From Streptomyces rapamycinicus NRRL 5491 (GTDB taxonomy: Bacteria > Actinomycetota > Actinomycetes > Streptomycetales > Streptomycetaceae): a stretch of 64,000 nt of DNA. The stretch is from positions 5,208,001 through 5,272,000 of the forward strand of contig NZ_CP085193.1 of the NCBI RefSeq assembly GCF_024298965.1. The letters are read 5' to 3'. Of the stretch, positions 1-62,700 are shown piece after piece. Each line of letters opens with the position of its first letter. Positions within the stretch are counted from its first letter, which is position 1. The translations under genes and the position numbers were made by a program. The notes under the pieces are model-generated. The model did not search any database, was not told the DNA's origin, and was given only the letters and a program-made list of their open reading frames with translations.

Positions 1-16
1 GGGCCGGCCGGCCGGA

Positions 17-880
17 GTGCCGCTGACCGGCGCCCTCAAGGACACGGTCAAGCAGCTGATCCGCAAGCCCCTGCGGCCCGTCGCGTCCTGCCGGGTCACC
101 GCCGAGGGCGATCTGTCGGTGCTGCTGGAGCCCGCCGGCGTGCACGGCGGTGAGCTCGAACTGACCGTCACCCGCCGCAAGAGCGACGAGCCGCCCTTCC
201 ACATACCGCTGCTGCCCCCGGTCGGCGCCGCGCCGTCCGCGCCCTGGACGGCCACCCTCGACCGCGCGACGCTCGACCTCGACGAGGGCCGCTGGGACCT
301 GCATGTGGTCCGCCCCTCCGACGGCGTCCGCCGCCGGGTCGGCTGCCGCTTCGCCGAGGGGCGCGGGCTGCTGGACCTGGAGCCGCTGCCCGGCTCCCCG
401 TTCACCTGGTGGATCCCCTACTCCACCGTCGACGGCTATCTCGCGCTGCGCGCCTGGCGGCGCCCGGCCCACGCCGAGGCCCGGGTGATCCGCCTGGACG
501 CCGAGGGGATCGCCGTCGAAGGCACCCTGCACGGCGCGCGCTTCGGGCCCGACGCCGCCCCCGCCGCGGTGGCCACCCCGTCCAGGGGCCCGGCCCGCCC
601 GTTCCTCACCGGGGTCACCGCGCTCGACGGCGGCCGGTTCCGCTTCACCGTTCCGTACGAGCGGATCCGGGAGGCTCATGACGGCGAAGAGGGCGCCGCG
701 GGCTGGACCCTGACGCTCCACAAGTCGGCCCGGGGCGGGACCCCGATCCGGATCGGACGCATCGTCGGCGACATCGTGGACCGCGACAAAACGGACCTCT
801 TTCCGATCACTCACGGTGTCCGCCCCCACCTCACCCGCACCGGTGACCTCGCCATCATCTCCGTCACCACGGGGAATTGA
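17..880 (+). CDS. Unrecognised protein, probably the C-terminal part of a larger one
   Basis: The GTG at 17 opens a 287-residue frame, but the frame is already open back to base 2, so the true start probably lies outside the window. No catalytic motif is visible. The sequence looks like repeated beta-sandwich segments, each a short strand-rich block with a polar Arg/Thr/Asp pattern, and it ends in a hydrophilic tail with TGN. It resembles the C-terminal accessory region of some actinobacterial cell-wall glycosyl or glycerophosphate transferases, but that is only an impression. It ends 99 bases before the next gene. Function unknown. Confidence 0.6.
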   Translation: MPLTGALKDTVKQLIRKPLRPVASCRVTAEGDLSVLLEPAGVHGGELELTVTRRKSDEPPFHIPLLPPVGAAPSAPWTATLDRATLDLDEGRWDLHVVRPSDGVRRRVGCRFAEGRGLLDLEPLPGSPFTWWIPYSTVDGYLALRAWRRPAHAEARVIRLDAEGIAVEGTLHGARFGPDAAPAAVATPSRGPARPFLTGVTALDGGRFRFTVPYERIREAHDGEEGAAGWTLTLHKSARGGTPIRIGRIVGDIVDRDKTDLFPITHGVRPHLTRTGDLAIISVTTGN

Positions 881-7122: not shown

Positions 7123-7182
7123 TGGTCAATCTCCTCGATGTCTGCACCGGCCGTATGAGGTACCGGTGTCAGTGAACAAAAT

Positions 7183-7206
7183 CCAGCCCGTCCGGCGATT
7201 GAGGAC
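7183..7206. repeat. Common Streptomyces intergenic repeat
   Basis: The rpoA-rplQ gap contains CCGTCCGGCGATTGAGGAC, a short sequence I recognise as recurring in intergenic regions across Streptomyces genomes, usually near transcript ends. Only one copy is seen in this window. Its function is unknown; it may be a small palindromic-type repeat or processing site. Confidence 0.5.
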
Positions 7207-23151: not shown

Positions 23152-23460
23152 TCAGAGCTTGATCTCGATGTCGACGCCGGCCGGCAGGTCGAGACGCATC
23201 AGCGAGTCAACCGTCTTCGGCGTGGGGTCGAGGATGTCGATGAGGCGCTTGTGCGTACGCATCTCGAAGTGCTCGCGCGAGTCCTTGTACTTGTGCGGCG
23301 ACTTGATGACGCAGTACACGTTCTTCTCTGTGGGCAGCGGCACCGGGCCCGCGACCGACGCACCAGTCCGGGTCACCGTCTCGACGATCTTCTTCGCCGA
23401 GGAGTCGATGACCTCGTGGTCGTAAGCCTTGAGCCGGATGCGGATCTTCTGTCCCGCCAT
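23152..23460 (-). CDS. rpsJ: 30S ribosomal protein S10
   Basis: A 102-residue S10 (NusE) beginning [19 protein letters not shown], with the loop around [20 protein letters not shown]. It is both a ribosomal protein and an antitermination factor with NusB. It heads the S10-spc-alpha block and is preceded by a structured leader. Confidence 0.99.
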
Positions 23461-23531: not shown

Positions 23532-23607
23532 CCCGACCCACGCGGTCGGGCGTGTCGCAACCCCTCCCGTAAATCTCCGCACGGAGATCCCTGATGAAGG
23601 GGGTTGC
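23532..23607 (-). promoter_or_regulatory. Structured mRNA leader of the S10 operon
   Basis: Read as mRNA, an outer stem (GCAACCCC, paired from 23600-23607 with 23557-23564) encloses a perfect seven-pair hairpin (ATCTCCG-TG-CGGAGAT, 23573-23588). It is followed at once by a third hairpin, CCCGACC-loop-GGTCGGG (23532-23550). The 3' part, about 26 bases, matches the leader of rpsL with one difference. It ends about 70 bases before the rpsJ ATG. A regulatory or processing element is inferred. Confidence 0.6.
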
Positions 23608-24067
23608 TGGGGGAGAAATTCACCCACCGGGCGCCTGGCTGGGGCCCCGCTGACGCTTCCCGGAAGATTCCCGTACTTCCGCCCCTGATCAGGGGCGACG
23701 AGTACTGTGGGACTCGCTTCCGGTCCTCCCGGCGGGAGGCGCGCAGCATCGGCACTCAACCGAGCAACCTGGTCAGTGTGCCATAGCGGCTGCTCCGGAC
23801 GCCAATCAGGGGCCCGGAAGCGTACCCCGCGCGGGGCGCACTTCAAACTCGGCGCGCACCGGGGGGGGCGGCACAGTGGCACGTGCGACTGTGCTGTCCA
23901 ATGTGACCCCGCGCGCAACAGGGGCACAAGCCCCAACCGGTCACCCTCCCCACACGTCTCTCCAGGGGAACACACGACACACTCGCACTCCGGAGCACCG
24001 ACGGCTCACGCGGCATGCGCACGCGGCCGATTCACCCGCCCCGCTGACACCCCCTGGAAGCGCCCCC
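23608..24067. other. Intergenic region with S10 operon promoter and a palindrome
   Basis: No gene is convincing here. A perfect 18-base palindrome, CGCCCCTGATCAGGGGCG, lies at 23680-23697. On the minus strand TTGGAC (23901-23896) is 17 bases from CACTGT (23878-23873), a possible promoter for rpsJ, but the -10 box is weak. The start of the divergent DUF3152 gene at 24068 closes the region. Confidence 0.35.
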
Positions 24068-36200: not shown

Positions 36201-36572
36201 TTACTTCTCCTTCTTGGCGCCGTAGCGGCTGCGAGCCTGCTTGCGGTTCTTGACGCCCTGCGTGTCGAGGGAGCCGCGGATGATCTTGTAACGAACACCC
36301 GGCAGGTCCTTCACACGACCGCCGCGCACGAGCACGATGGAGTGCTCCTGCAAGTTGTGCCCCTCACCCGGGACATAGGCGGTGACCTCGATCCCACTGC
36401 TCAGCCGGACACGCGCGACCTTGCGGAGCGCCGAGTTCGGCTTCTTCGGCGTCGTGGTGAACACGCGAGTGCATGTACCACGGCGCTGCGGCGACCCCGC
36501 GAGGGCGGGGGTCTTGTTCTTCTCGACCTTGTCCTGACGGCCCTTGCGGACCAGCTGCTGGATCGTAGGCAC
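36201..36572 (-). CDS. rpsL: 30S ribosomal protein S12
   Basis: The protein has 123 residues from GTG 36572, with GGAG six bases upstream. S12 monitors decoding. Lys43 (in [10 protein letters not shown]) and Lys88 (in GGRVKDLPG) are both wild type, so the sequence predicts streptomycin sensitivity at this locus. It is the first gene of the str operon. Confidence 0.99.
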
Positions 36573-36622
36573 CGTTTCTCCGGTTTCTGTGTGCCAGTCT
36601 CGGTAAAGCTAACCTGGAGTTT

Positions 36623-36684
36623 CTCCGACCCACGCGGTCGGGTGTGTCGCGCACCGCAGCTCTCCGCGGAAGCTCAGAGAGTGC
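36623..36684 (-). promoter_or_regulatory. Structured mRNA leader of the str operon
   Basis: As mRNA, GCAC/GTGC (36681-36684 with 36651-36654) closes a hairpin with core TCCGCGGA (36658-36674). This is followed directly by CCGACC-loop-GGTCGG (36625-36641) and the flanking GCGACAC sequence. The 3' element matches the rpsJ leader over ~26 bases with one change. It ends ~50 bases before the rpsL start. Two unrelated 5' stems with the same layout suggest conserved RNA structure. Confidence 0.6.
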
Positions 36685-36767
36685 AGATTGTTGGTGTCGA
36701 CACTCCAGCTCCCCACGCGGACGAGTGCACGCGCGAGGACCCGGGCACACCCCAGGCACAAGGTCTG

Positions 36768-36796
36768 AGCGTACCTACCTCATCGACTTCGGTCAA
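36768..36796 (-). promoter_or_regulatory. Probable vegetative promoter of the str operon
   Basis: On the minus strand TTGACC (36796-36791) and TACGCT (36773-36768) are separated by exactly 17 bases, matching the principal Streptomyces sigma factor consensus. The predicted start lies near 36761, giving a leader of ~190 bases that contains the structured element. Confidence 0.7.
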
Positions 36797-49500: not shown

Positions 49501-52500
49501 CGTACGGTCCAGCAGCTCCTGGCCGGCTCCGAACACCACGTCTTTCAGGGGCAGCGGAACCCGGTCGCACACCGCGTCGAACGCCTCGGCGAACACGGGA
49601 TACGTGTCGTACAGCTCCCGTCCCATGCCGACCCGTTGGGCGCCCTGGCCGGTGAAGACGAAGGCCGTCCCGCGGTCGGTGGCGGTGGCGGTCGCGGTCG
49701 CGTTCACGTGGAAGGTGTTCGCGGCGGGGAGGTCGTCGTACAGCGCCGACAGGCCCTGTAGGACGTCGGCGCGCTCGGCGGCCACCACCGCGCCCCGGAA
49801 GGGGAAGAAGCTCCGCGTGGACACCAGCGACCAGCCGACGTCGACCGGGCGCAGTCCCGGGTGGGCGATGAGGTGGTCGCGCAGCCGGAGCGCCTGCCGG
49901 CGGAGGGCCTGGGCGGAGCGCGCGGAGAGCAGAAGGGGAACGACTGGCCGGGTGCGGTCACGGTCGGGCGGTTCGGAGGTTTCGGAGATCTCGGAGATTT
50001 CCGGGGTCACGGTGGTTTCCGGGCTATCCCGGGTTTCCGGGGTGATCGCTTCCCGCTGTGTTTCGGTGGGGCCGGTTTCGGGGGCCTGTTCCAGGATGAC
50101 GTGAGCGTTGGTACCGCTGATCCCGAACGAGGACACCCCCGCCCGACGCGGACGCTCACCCACCTCCGGCCACTCCCGAGCCTCCCTCAGCAGCGACACC
50201 CCACCCGACGACCAGTCCACATGCGGCGACGGCTCATCCACATGCAACGTGCCCGGCAGCACCCCGTGCCGCATCGCCATCACCATCTTGATCACACCCG
50301 CCACACCCGCCGCCGCCTGCGCATGCCCAATATTCGACTTCACCGACCCCAACCACAACGGCTCACCACCCGACCGCTCCCGCCCATACACCGCCTGCAA
50401 CGCCTGCGCCTCAATCGGATCACCCAACACCGTCCCCGTCCCATGCCCCTCCACCACATCCACCTCACCCGCCACCACACCCGCACGACCCAACGCCTGC
50501 CGAATCACCCGCTGCTGCGACGGACCATTCGGCGCCGTCAACCCATTCGACGCACCATCCTGATTCACCGCACTACCCCGCACCACCGCCACCACCCGAT
50601 GACCCCGCCGCCGCGCCTCCGACAACCGCTCCACCACCAACACCCCCACACCCTCCGACCACCCCGTCCCATCCGCCGCCCCCGCAAACGACTTGCACCG
50701 CCCATCAACAGCCAACCCCCGCTGCCTGCTGAACTCCACAAACGTCCCCGGAGACGACATCACCGTCACACCACCCACCACCGCCATCGAACACTCCCCC
50801 GCCCGCAACGCCTGACCCGCCATATGCAACGCCACCAACGACGACGAACACGCCGTATCCACCGTCACCGCCGGACCCTCGAACCCCAGCGCATACGCCA
50901 CCCGCCCCGACAACACACTCGCCGTATTCCCCGTCCCCACATAACCCTCAACACCCTCAGGCAAAACCCCCAGCCGGGACGCATAGTCGTAATACATCAC
51001 CCCCGCATACACACCCACATCACGCCCACGCAGCTCACCCGGCACCAACCCACCGGACTCCAACGCCTCCCATACCACCTCCAGCAACAACCGCTGCTGC
51101 GGATCCATCGCCACCGCCTCACGCGGCGAAATACCGAAGAACTCCGCATCAAACTCCGCAGCCCCGTAGAGGAAGCCGCCCTCGCGCACATAGCTCTTCC
51201 CCCAGCGTCCCGGGTCCCGGTCGTAGAGCGCCTCCACGTCCCAGTCCCGGTCCACCGGGAACACGGACACCCCGTCGCCGCCGGAGGCCACCAGGTCCCA
51301 CAACCCCTCGGGGGATTCCACCCCACCCGGGAAACGGCACGCCATCCCCACGATCGCCAACGGCTCATCACTCGCCACCCCCGCACCCGACGACGGCACC
51401 ACAACGGCATCCGCCTCACCACCGAACAGCTCACCACCCAGCTGAGCCGCCAGCGCCGCAGGCGTCGGATAGTCGAACACCAACGTCGCCGGAAGCAGGA
51501 GTCCGGTGGCCTCGTTGAGCCGGTTCCGCAGGTCCACACCGGTCAGCGAGTCGAAGCCCAACTCGCCGAACGGGCGCTGCGGATCGATGCCGTCCGAGGA
51601 GCGGTGACCCAGCGCCGCAGCGGTCTGCCGACGGACGAAGTCGAGCAGGGCCTGGTCCCGCTGGTCCGCGGGCAGGGAGCGCAGCCGGTCCCGTACCGCG
51701 CTGCCGGAGGCCGCACGGGCCGCACGGCGCACCGGCGCGGGGACGAGGTCGGCCAGCAGCGGCGGGACGTGGTCCGGGCGGTGGCGCAGCGCGGCGGTGT
51801 CCAGCCGCATCGGCAGCAGCACGGAGTCCCGCGCGGGGAGGGCGGCGTCGAAGAGGGCAAGCCCCTCGTCGGCGGACAGCGCACCGAGCCCGGCGCGCCG
51901 CATCCTCTCGGCGTCCGCCCGCGAGAGCTCGCCGGCCATGCCCATGGCGCCCTGCTCCCAGGGGCCCCAGGCCAGGGAGAGCGCGGGCAGGCCATGGGCG
52001 CGGCGCCGGCCGGCAAGAGCGTCCAGGAAGGCGTTGGCCGCCGCATAGTTGGCCTGCCCCGGGCCACCCAGAGTGCCGGACGCCGACGAGAACAGCACGA
52101 ACGCCGACAGATCCAACCCCGCCGTCAACTCATGCAGATACCACGCCGCATCCACCTTCGGACGCAACACCGCATCCAACCGCTCCGCCGTCAACGAACC
52201 AACCACACCGTCATCCAGCACCCCCGCCGCATGCACCACCCACGCCAAATCCCCCACACCCGCCACCACACCCGCCAACGCCCCACGATCCCCCACATCA
52301 CACGCCACCACCGACACCTCAGCACCCAGCTCCAACAACTCCTCCCGCAGCCCCACTGCACCCGGCGCCTCCACACCCCGCCGACTCACCAACACCAACC
52401 GCCGCACACCACGCTCCACCACCAAATGCCGAGCCACCACCCCACCCAACGCACCCGTACCACCCGTAATCAACGCCGCACCCCGAGCCCCGAAAACCTC

Positions 52501-55500: not shown

Positions 55501-56706
55501 ACGGTGGCGGATGGCCATCACCGCCTTGATGACCCCGGCGACACCGGCGGCGGTCTGGGTGTGGCCGATGTTCGACTTGACCGTGCCAAGCCACAGCGGC
55601 CGGTCGGCCGGCCGGTCCTGGCCGTACGTCGCCAGCAGCGCCTGCGCCTCGATCGGATCGCCCAGCGAAGTGCCCGTGCCGTGCGCCTCCACCAGATCGA
55701 CGGCGTCGGCGGACATCTGGGCGGCGGCCAGCGCCTGCCGGATCACCCGCTGCTGCGCGAGACCGTTCGGGGCCGTGAGCCCGTTGCTGGCGCCGTCCTG
55801 GTTGACTGCCGTACCCCGCACCACGGCCAGCACCTGGTGCCCGAGGCGCCGCGCGTCGGACAGGCGCTCCAGCAGCAGGACGCCCACGCCCTCGCCCCAG
55901 GCCGTACCGTCCGCGGCTGCCGAGAACGCCTTGCACCGTCCGTCGACGGCCAGCCCCCGCTGCCTGCTGAACTCCACGAACATCGTCGGCACCGACATCA
56001 CCGACACCCCGGCGACCAGCGCCATCGAGCACTCGTTCTGCCGCAGCGACTGGCCTGCCAGATGGAGCGCCACCAGGGAGGACGAGCACGCCGTGTCCAC
56101 GCTCACCGCGGGGCCCTCCAGCCCCAGGGTGTAGGCCACCCGGCCGGAGACCACGCTCGCCGCTCCCCCGGTCAGCAGATAGCCCTCCACCTCGTCGTCC
56201 ACCGCGCTCGCCCCGGACCCGTAGCCGAGCTGGGCAGCGCCGACGAACACCCCCGTACGGCTGCCACGCAGAGCGGTGGCGTCGATCCCCGCCCGTTCGA
56301 ACGCCTCCCAGGACGTCTCCAGCAGCAGCCGCTGCTGCGGGTCCATGGCGAGCGCCTCGCGGGGGTTGATGCCGAAGAAGCCGGCGTCGAAGTCGGCGAC
56401 GTCACGGACGAACCCTCCCTCGCGGACATAGCTCGTCCCGGGCCGGTCCGGGTCCGGGCTGTAGAGCGCGTCCAGGTCCCAGCCCCGGTCGTCCGACAGC
56501 GGGCCCATCGCGTCACCGCCGGAGCCCACGAGCCGCCACAGGTCCTCCGGGGACCGGACGTCACCGGGGAAACGGCAGCTCATGCCCACGATCGCCAGGG
56601 GTTCACGAGAGGTCTCGGTCAGATGGCGGTTCCGCTGCCGAAGCCGCTCGACTTCCTTGACGGATGCCCGAAGCGCCTCGACAAGTTCGTTGTTCGGTGT
56701 GGTCAT
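46588..56706 (-). CDS. Type I polyketide synthase, two modules (terminal in the window)
   Basis: The synthase has 3,372 residues from ATG 56706, with an N-terminal coiled-coil docking domain ([20 protein letters not shown]). Module 1: KS (Cys ~205 in VDTACSSS), malonyl AT (GHSVGE, HAFH), DH (HPLLGAAV ~934; RYGPAFRAV), KR (GGTGALGG ~1411; NYAAAN; LDD, B-type), ACP (GFDSLTGV ~1719). Module 2: KS (Cys ~1949), malonyl AT (GHSLGE, HAFH), KR with the active site destroyed (~3026-3160), ACP (GFASLGAI ~3324). There is no thioesterase and no C-terminal docking helix. Three repeat-rich linkers occur in module 2. Confidence 0.95.
47668..47762 (-). repeat. Coding minisatellite inside the second KR region
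   Basis: About eleven copies of a nine-base unit resembling GTTCTGGGG encode a low-complexity Asn/Pro/Gln/Glu/Thr stretch ([15 protein letters not shown]). It lies just before the dead KR nucleotide-binding motif. Copy number is likely to vary between strains. Confidence 0.8.
50191..50580 (-). repeat. Direct repeat copy A within a KS region
   Basis: Near-identical to 61964-62353 at a constant offset of 11,773 bases, covering part of the ketosynthase from the NIGHAQ to SAVNQDG region. The codon choice differs sharply from flanking PKS DNA (G- and T-rich coding strand). It is a recombination or gene-conversion tract. Confidence 0.75.
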
Positions 56707-59700: not shown

Positions 59701-62700
59701 TGGCCGTCAGCGTCACGCCTTCGGACGTCGTGCGGGTGATCCGGACGCGCAGTGCGGAAGCGCCGGCAGCGTGGAGGGTCACCCCCTCCCACGAGAACGG
59801 GAGCAGGACGTGCCCGGGGTGGTGAGGGAGATCGGTCAGGCTCATCGCGTGCAACGCGGCGTCGAGCAGGGCGGGGTGCAGCACGAACCCGTCGGCGTCG
59901 GCATCGCTCGGGAGCCGCACTTCGGCCAGCACCTCGGCGCCCTGCCGCCAGGCGGCCGAGAGGCCCCGGAAGGAAGGTCCGTAGTCGAGCCCGGCTTCGG
60001 CGAACCGCTCGTACAGACCGTCGAGATCCGCCGGAGCCGCCCCGGCCGGGGGCCAAGGGGCGTTCTGGGCCTCGGGTGTGACCGCGCCGCGACTCACGAG
60101 GCCGGTGGCGTGCCGCAGCCACGGCTGATCGTCCGGGGCGTCCTCGGCTCGGGAGTAGACGGTGAGCGTCCGGACGCCGTTGTCGTCCGGCTCGGCCACG
60201 GTGACCTGGAGCTGGGTGGCACCGTCCTGCGGAATGACCAGCGGGGTCTCCAGGGTCAACTCGTCCAGACGGTCACAACCGACCTCGTCCCCAGCACGCA
60301 TCGCCATCTCGACAAAGGCCGTACCCGGCAGCAACACCCGGCCCATGACCACGTGATCCGCCAGCCACGAATGCGACCCCACCGACAACCGCCCCGTCAG
60401 CACCACCCCAGCACCATCAGGCGACCGCACCACCGCCCCCAACAACCCATGCTCCACCACACCCAACCCCACAGCCGACACATCACCCGACACCACCGGC
60501 ACATCAAGCCAATAACGCCGCCGCTGAAAGGCATACGTCGGCAACTCGACCCGCCGCGCACCCCCGAACAACGAGGACCAGTCCACCGCCACACCATGGA
60601 CATACGCCTCCCCCACAGACCGCAAAAACCGGTCCAACCCGCCATCGTCACGACGCAGCGACCCCAAAACCACAGCCCCCGCACCCGCCGCGTCAATGCT
60701 CTCCTGCACCCCGACCGCGAGCACCGGATGCGCACTGGCCTCAATAAACACATCGAAACCGTCGTCAAGGAGCGCCTTGGTCGCGGTCGCGAAACGCACC
60801 GTCTCCCGCAGATTCCGATACCAGTACTCCGCATCCAGCTGCTCGGTGTCGATCCAGTCACCCGTCACCGTGGAGAAGAACGGCACCCGGGACCGCACCG
60901 GAGCAATCCCGCCCAACTCCTCCAACAACCGCTCCCGCAACACCTCCACACCCACCGAATGCGACGCGTAATCCACCTCAACCCGCCGCGCCCGCACCCC
61001 CTCCACCCCACACACCCCAACAAACTCATCCAACGCCTCCCCATCACCCGACACCACAACCGAGGACGGCCCATTGACAGCCGCCACACCGACCCGGCCA
61101 TCCCACCGCTCCAACAGCACACCAACCTCGTCGGCGGAAACCGCCACTGACACCATGCCCCCACCACCCGCCAACACCCTCAACGCCCGACTCCGCAAAG
61201 CCACCACACGCGCCCCGTCCTCCAACGACAACGCACCCGCCACACACGCCGCCGCAATCTCCCCCTGCGAATGCCCCACCACCGCACCCGGCACCACACC
61301 AAAGGACTCCCACAACGCCCCCAACGACACCATCACCGCCCACAACACCGGCTGCACCACATCCACCCGCCCCAACGCAGACCCGTCCTCCAACACCCCC
61401 GCCAACGACCAATCCACATACGCCGACAAAGCCCGCTCACACTCCGCCATCCGCCCCGCAAACACCGACGAAACCCCCAACAACTCCACCGCCATCCCCA
61501 CCCACTGCGACCCCTGCCCCGGAAACACCACCACCGACTTCCCCACACCCGAACCCCCACCAGCAACCAACCCCGGAGCCGAAACCCCCTCGGCCAACGC
61601 CACCAAACCAGCACGAAGCCCCCCGACACCATCCCCCACCACCACCGCCCGATCCGGCAACGCCGCCCGCGACGCCGCGAGAGACAGCCCCACATCGGCC
61701 GGACACAGATCCGTACGGCCCTCCGTGAACGACACCAGACGCCCCGCCTGCTCACGCAGCGCCCGTTCACCCCGAGCCGACAGCGGCCAGACAACCGGCC
61801 CATCCGCCGCCAGATCCCCCGGCCCCTCCACGACCCCGGCATCATCGGCCTCGACGACCTGCTCAAGGATCACGTGCGCATTGGTCCCACTGACCCCGAA
61901 GGAGGAGATGCCGGCCCGGCGCGGACGGCCGTCCACCTCCGGCCACTCCCGGGCCTCCGTCAACAGCGACACCCCACCCGACGACCAGTCCACATGCGGC
62001 GACGGCTCATCCACATGCAACGTGCGCGGCAGTACCCCGTGCCGCATCGCCATCACCATCTTGATCACACCCGCCACACCCGCCGCCGCCTGCGCATGCC
62101 CGATATTCGACTTCAACGACCCCAACCACAGAGGCCGATCAACCGCACGCCCCTGCCCATACGTCGCCAACAACGCCTGCGCCTCGATCGGATCACCCAG
62201 CGTCGTCCCCGTCCCATGCCCCTCCACCACATCGACATCACCCGACGACAACCCCGCACCCACCAACGCCTGCCGGATCACCCGCTGCTGCGACGGACCA
62301 TTCGGCGCCGTCAAACCATTCGACGCACCATCCTGATTCACCGCACTACCCCGCACCACCGCCAACACCCGAAGCCCACGCCGCCGCGCCTCCGACAACC
62401 GCGTCACCAACAACACACCCACACCCTCGCCCCAGCCGGTGCCGTCCGTGGCGGCTGCGAACGCCTTGCACCGGCCGTCCGCCGCAAGCCCGCGCTGCCT
62501 GCTGAACTCCACGAAGGCGCCCGGGGTGGCCATCAGCGCCACCCCGCCCGCCAGCGCCATCGAGCACTCGCCCTTCCGCAGCGCCTGGGCGGCCAGATGC
62601 AGCGCCACCAGCGACGACGAGCACGCCGTGTCCACCGTCAGCGCCGGGCCCTCCAGCCCGAAGGTGTACGCCACCCGCCCGGACACCACACTGGCCGAAG

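Follow-up and report, generated by a model that had tools for sequence, protein, structure and literature searches.

A short near-invariant sequence block in the rpsJ and rpsL leaders of Streptomyces rapamycinicus and its class

In the window, which is the whole stretch of 64,000 nucleotides of Streptomyces rapamycinicus DNA analysed here, the leaders of two ribosomal operons, str (rpsL-rpsG-fusA-tuf) and S10 (rpsJ-rplC...), have one short sequence in common. This raises the question of whether it is a shared regulatory site and, if so, whether it is read as structure or as sequence. The sequence is the 26-base block GCGACAC[G/A]CCCGACCGCGTGGGTCGG, found on the minus strand in both leaders, and the single difference between the two copies is a G in rpsJ and an A in rpsL. 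The genes, the copies and the stem-loops adjoining them are the following:

23152..23460, minus strand: rpsJ (S10), first gene of the S10 operon, named from its translation and from matches in other genomes
23533..23558, minus strand: rpsJ copy of the block, GCGACACGCCCGACCGCGTGGGTCGG, from the motif match in the window and the genome
23557..23607, minus strand: 5' stem-loop adjoining the rpsJ block, proposed earlier; folds well here, elsewhere no commoner than chance
36201..36572, minus strand: rpsL (S12), GTG start, first gene of the str operon, named from its translation and from matches elsewhere
36625..36650, minus strand: rpsL copy of the block, GCGACACACCCGACCGCGTGGGTCGG, from the motif match in the window and the genome and from leader alignment
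36654..36686, minus strand: 5' stem-loop adjoining the rpsL block, proposed earlier; elsewhere not clearly above chance

The start codons lie 72 nt (rpsJ) and 52 nt (rpsL) 3' of the respective blocks. A sequence-only reading of this DNA had reported a block of about 26 bases in the two leaders, differing at one position, and both copies were recovered on the minus strand where it had placed them; the layout that it described, a 5' stem-loop followed by a CCGACC/GGTCGG hairpin, is also how both window leaders fold. The fold energy is unusual for the rpsJ leader (z -4.18, none of 200 shuffles as good) and ordinary for the rpsL leader (z -1.35, 16 of 200 shuffles as good). The 26-mer has two matches in the window and none in 100 shuffles, and the 23-base core of the block, with up to three mismatches allowed, matches the 12.47-Mb genome only at the rpsJ and rpsL copies. 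A slightly longer and looser pattern gives one extra match in this genome, at three mismatches, which is read as chance.

When the window leaders were compared with 4227 Rfam families, nothing rose above the gathering cut-off and nothing relevant appeared at E<=10. Elsewhere in the window, positions 7142-7191 of the minus strand match the known L17 ribosomal leader (RF03132), and three stretches of the plus strand, 50338-50412, 55576-55650 and 62111-62185, match the Rfam family ASpks (antisense in polyketide synthase genes), perhaps because of repeated PKS coding sequence.

Distribution of the block

A pattern search over 197 genomes of the class returned a block match in 176, the reversed pattern being mostly absent. 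Leaders were taken as the 503-base stretch ending with the start codon; this covered 113 rpsL and 83 rpsJ genes (196 leaders), from a subset of the 143 genomes, out of 148 of the class, in which rpsL was found by protein. At up to three mismatches the block occurs in 87 of the 113 rpsL leaders and 42 of the 83 rpsJ leaders, in a set that includes the loci L033-L072, chosen because of a block match. Outside the match-chosen loci it occurs, at the same threshold, in 58 of 74 rpsL leaders (22 families) and 17 of 52 rpsJ leaders (19 families), a set in which two regions (L123, L142) were located via the match list. The reversed pattern gives nothing below six mismatches in the leaders, and shuffled leaders give nothing below five. 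Orientation is fixed, given that 129 of the 196 leaders have the block on the sense strand at up to three mismatches and, with the sense site masked, none has it on the opposite strand. In each of the 34 families read, out of 40 family codes in the class sample, at least one genome has the block (up to three mismatches) before rpsL or rpsJ, and in some families it is not present in every genome.

The block is limited to the class. In a sample of the phylum, it was found at up to two mismatches in all 10 genomes of the same class and in none of 109 genomes of other classes; at three mismatches, seven of these 109 have a lone match and five have a control match. Named records hold at least 120 stretches with the exact block, and among the 80 matches listed, 54 precede rpsJ, 25 precede rpsL and the remaining one is truncated by a contig end. 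These 80 records are named for genera that we take to be members of this class. Viral contigs gave no exact block.

Third matches to the block do exist in single genomes, some of them of the genus Streptomyces. In family f18, each of the eight that were retrieved falls inside a long open frame, and six share one frame of a HAMP-like protein (named by eye); a third regulon member in this family was therefore rejected. The sequence-only reading had named, as the case that would count against it, a block spread outside leaders as an ordinary repeat, and the opposite was seen in the 79 of 80 listed exact matches that precede rpsJ or rpsL.

Sequence and structure of the block

The class-wide consensus of the block, first taken from match-selected loci, is CGACACRCCCGACCNCGKGGGTCGG. 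Alignment A2 was made from those of the 196 leaders that lie within five mismatches of the consensus, with within-genus duplicates dropped, which left 130 rows. Nine block positions never vary in the 130 rows, which had been preselected at up to five mismatches, and the nearly unchanging stretch extends over about 24 bases. The least variable parts include the asymmetric 5' half (CGACAC) and the loop (CGKG), and the most variable is the 3' arm GGTCGG.

The columns of the CCGACC/GGTCGG helix pair in 85.1% of cells, against 19.7-65.1% for helices slid by one to three columns, with all six pairs present in 63 of the 130 rows, five or six in 102, and three or fewer in 13. Nonetheless, column shuffles pair just as often (85.4%), and only one of 780 cells is compensatory. 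The hairpin can thus form in most rows, but changes in its 3' arm are unanswered by the 5' arm. The 5' stem that closes at the block edge fares no better, its frequency being 0.32 against 0.32 with shuffled flanks in the class set (n=139) and 0.30 against 0.29 in named rpsJ leaders (n=54); in named rpsL leaders it is slightly commoner, 0.28 against 0.21 (n=25). Given that the hairpin lacks covariation and the 5' stem behaves as with shuffled flanks, selection appears to act mainly on sequence, and the block seems to be kept mainly for its primary sequence. Of the earlier claim of selection on RNA structure plus a fixed recognition sequence, the fixed sequence stands, in the form of the near-invariant block, and the structural part is not supported, since an absence of covariation, which that reading had itself set against its proposal, is what was found for the proposed structure.

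Some weaker signs of pairing were seen. A small competing hairpin 5' of the block, GnGYG[CGACA]CRCCC, has at its pair -4/+4 18 double-changed cells against 10.3 in shuffles, and p is 0.04 when the shuffling is kept within family and gene, which makes it a weak lead. The block also pairs with upstream sequence more than with shuffled flanks, an excess that may come from conserved G-rich bases just 5' of it, and pairs with downstream sequence no more than with shuffled flanks. In an alternative CCCG/CGKG mini-hairpin within the block, three of the four pairs are invariant and hence no covariation can be read. Two other candidates were rejected: a leader peptide, given that the block has no frame preference (counts of an in-frame start were 98, 96 and 100 out of 139 in the three frames), and mimicry of or complementarity to rRNA, which at the sequence level and for one rRNA operon of this genome was no better than in shuffles.

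Place in the transcript and number of copies

The block lies in the predicted 5' UTR of the ribosomal-protein operons, between a predicted promoter and the start codon. The features upstream of the two copies are the following:

36768..36796, minus strand: predicted rpsL promoter, TTGACC-17-TACGCT, kept in 28 aligned Streptomyces-type leaders
36739..36757, minus strand: 5'-terminal hairpin of the rpsL mRNA, GCCTGGG(GTGTG)CCCGGGT, from stem scoring
23775..23805, minus strand: predicted rpsJ promoter, TTGGCG..CACACT, by eye, with a similar CANACT..AGGTTGC in other families
23605..23781, minus strand: structured RNA of 177 nt that precedes the block in the Streptomyces rpsJ leader, with compensatory changes

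A scan with an E. coli-type consensus found no promoter in either window leader, and the promoter calls therefore rest on conservation. The pattern TTGAC[CT]-16..18-TAnnnT was found before rpsL in 49 genera of a set of 67, and in 46 of these 49 the block lies at about +17 to +195 from the predicted start, the other three having no block. The fact that the predicted rpsL promoter is upstream of the block places the block inside the predicted transcript, and the range of distances, about 17-195 nt, indicates that the spacing is free. From the end of the block to the start codon there are 28-146 nt in the rpsL leaders read and 42-228 nt in the rpsJ leaders, and a terminator scan found none 3' of the block in either window leader. 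In nine family alignments, few stretches between promoter and ribosome-binding site are kept as well as the block. The conserved islands of the 28 Streptomyces-type rpsL leaders are the promoter, the start region, the block, CCAGGTTAGCTT and the ribosome-binding site, where CCAGGTTAGCTT lies just 3' of the block, at 36606-36617 on the minus strand of the window. In the rpsJ leader, the start region at 23765-23780 (minus strand), CANACTG..CAGGTTGC, looks kept beyond Streptomyces (for example in f13, f19, f24; L184, L195).

The number of copies appears to follow the transcription units. Where rpsJ leaders carry a block, the gap between tuf and rpsJ is 183-8689 nt (36 measured, and six without tuf in the retrieved locus); where they do not, it is 74-810 nt, with a median of 146 (n=41), a difference with a Mann-Whitney p of 1.7e-11 when kinship is ignored. 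That a separate rpsJ block occurs mainly where tuf and rpsJ are apart suggests about one block per transcription unit of the str and S10 operons. We infer that where rpsJ follows close behind tuf the rpsL copy would serve both, and that otherwise each transcript would have its own. The rule is not clean, since families f17 (10 of 10) and f18 (6 of 6) have no rpsJ block at gaps of 165-326 nt, which overlap those of block-bearing leaders, and the operon boundaries are putative.

Among the 82 genomes with both leaders read, at up to four mismatches, 35 have the block in both, 40 in rpsL only, six in rpsJ only and one in neither. Two of the six, from f4, keep a decayed rpsL copy at five to six mismatches, which leaves four that have no rpsL block, a weak hint at a regulator that belongs to the S10 operon. 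At the same threshold, 16 of the 113 rpsL leaders have no block, including all five of family f36, and in the f36 genome G106 it is missing from both leaders. When block loss in this family was set against the divergence of single proteins, likeness was low for every one of the five compared and lowest for S12, S7, EF-G and S10, so that no single one is pointed to. All five blockless f36 rpsL leaders (L135, L136, L137, L138, L039) carry GCTGTCACCGTGCAGCA ahead of the start instead, and four of them also carry CCCCCACGGCATACCCA upstream within the 140-base stretches.

Two further structures share these leaders with the block. A 5' hairpin with a stem score of at least 7 is present in 81% of 73 rpsL leaders, which are those with a promoter match after duplicates were dropped, compared with 18% of 730 shuffles and 18% of the 73 in stretches further downstream. 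By inspection, its arms vary by family and yet remain complementary (GCCTGGG/CCCGGGC, GCCCGT/ACGGGT, GCTCT/AGAGC and others), and it is present in f36 although the rpsL block is lost there. The 177-nt RNA, which overlaps the predicted -10 hexamer and start with its first ~12 positions, has double changes at 9 of 55 pairs (33 cells against 11.0 in shuffles). It occurs as a single copy in 23 of 25 genomes of the same genus and in none of 16 others, scores at most 21 bits in 98 other loci against 202 for the window, and is directly followed by the block and rpsJ in 10 of 10 loci checked. It has no Rfam match and is a candidate new ribosomal leader of Streptomyces. In Streptomyces rpsJ leaders it is as strictly kept as the block, and this counts against a reading centred on the block.

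What the block may do

Computation establishes the near-invariance of the block, its limit to the class, its orientation, its place downstream of the predicted promoter and upstream of the start codon, and the association of a separate rpsJ copy with separation of rpsJ from tuf. Very probably the block is a shared regulatory site that acts at the RNA level. The fuller reading, in which it is a transcribed cis element read by its sequence and present about once per unit in the str and S10 leaders of this class, has an even chance of being right. A trans-acting factor would bind the block in nascent or mature mRNA, with CGACACRCCCG read as single strand or weak hairpin and the CCGACC/GGTCGG hairpin serving as a common but dispensable scaffold, and the bound factor would adjust both operons together. 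Most likely a ribosomal protein encoded in the S10 operon would exert feedback in this way, the prior candidate, from E. coli, being L4. The argument for a ribosomal protein as the reader is the parallel with E. coli L4 and S7 (PMC10931766), and its chances fall a little short of even. Given a distance of 28-228 nt between block and start codon and no excess of downstream pairing, the output is more likely to pass through transcript elongation or mRNA lifetime than through direct masking of the ribosome-binding site.

The known systems offer partial parallels. In E. coli the S10 leader is regulated by L4 and str by S7, and the block is like these r-leaders in concerning the S10 and str operons and in a presumed coordination by ribosomal proteins (PMC10931766). 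Unlike them, it is one short near-invariant sequence common to two operons, without covariation, without any rRNA likeness found (a frequent but not universal trait of r-leaders) and without a sign of start-site masking; moreover, E. coli S7 binds between rpsL and rpsG and not in the rpsL leader. The lack of covariation in the block hairpin, unlike typical ribosomal-protein leaders, counts against the preferred explanation.

The S10 r-leader of Firmicutes (PMC7247131) and the rpsJ motif RLC-47-1 of Peptostreptococcaceae/Clostridioides (PMC11109978) are also upstream of rpsJ, but in another phylum. In PMC7247131, a table of 20 new r-leaders has only L17 and L31 as Actinobacteria entries and none for S10 or S12; this survey sought covarying structures and could therefore miss a site made of sequence only. 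The rpsL-leaders of Naville and Gautheret (PMC2965389) also belong to the str operon, but are based on terminators, which were not found 3' of the block in the window leaders; they are given for Listeria, Xanthomonas, Pseudomonas and Rickettsia, and before fusA in streptococci. PMC3207917 describes ribosomal genes with long 5' UTRs in M. tuberculosis and aligns other leader pairs, rpoA/rpsM and infA/infC. PMC8269248 reports a list of premature transcripts in S. clavuligerus. According to PMC8470358, actinobacterial control of ribosomal-protein operons is almost unstudied. A literature search that included sequence strings of the block, with most subscription papers outside its scope, found no description of it. 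A 2015 work by Cortes and Cox is said to deal with the rpsJ operon of the tubercle bacillus.

The position-tolerant nut/boxA, put and ops elements, which occur once per transcript and have a short recognition sequence, resemble the block in these traits. A rival reading is a processive antitermination or elongation signal that works like them, in which the nascent block would load Nus-type factors on RNA polymerase so that the long ribosomal operons are read through. The presence of about one block per transcript, its free distance to start codon and promoter, and the long operons downstream are all consistent with this. Nonetheless, it is an unlikely reading: unlike nut/boxA, the block is not in the rRNA operon examined in this genome, nor anywhere else in the genome at up to three mismatches, other long operons would need it equally, and no viral contig carries it exactly. 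It is rather improbable that the block is an mRNA processing or stability element, a site of cleavage or protection that sets the lifetime of both mRNAs. Such a role would fit with the conserved 5'-terminal hairpin that rpsL mRNAs also have, a feature typical of stabilised mRNAs, but near-invariance over about 20 bases exceeds what known nucleases, to our knowledge, need. A DNA operator, on which a class-specific DNA-binding protein would sit downstream of the start site, is quite improbable. The block is partly palindromic, given the inverted repeat CCGACC-N5-GGTCGG, and its primary sequence is kept more than its pairing. DNA operators, however, act as duplex and usually in either orientation, while the block keeps one orientation in every one of the 129 leaders that have it at up to three mismatches, has its asymmetric CGACAC half and CGKG loop among its most invariant parts, and lies at a variable distance, about 17-195 nt, from the predicted promoter. 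An ordinary repeat or coding coincidence, which some third matches in single genomes might have favoured, has next to no probability and is ruled out by the class-limited distribution and by the leader context of the listed exact matches, the eight third matches retrieved from f18 all lying inside long open frames.

With the RNA-level, sequence-read site as the preferred reading, it is conceivable, though doubtful, that a dedicated sequence-specific reader, through one copy of the block per transcript, ties the str and S10 operons of the class into one switch for ribosome production, with control exerted by primary sequence and not by a structured rRNA mimic. As rpsL promoters with their leaders are used for gene expression in Streptomyces, the block may also matter in practice. 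Being present in every family read, and so far before two operons only, it is a direct bait for the regulator and lends itself to a simple mutation test, and it may be the site at which ribosome production is coordinated in these bacteria.
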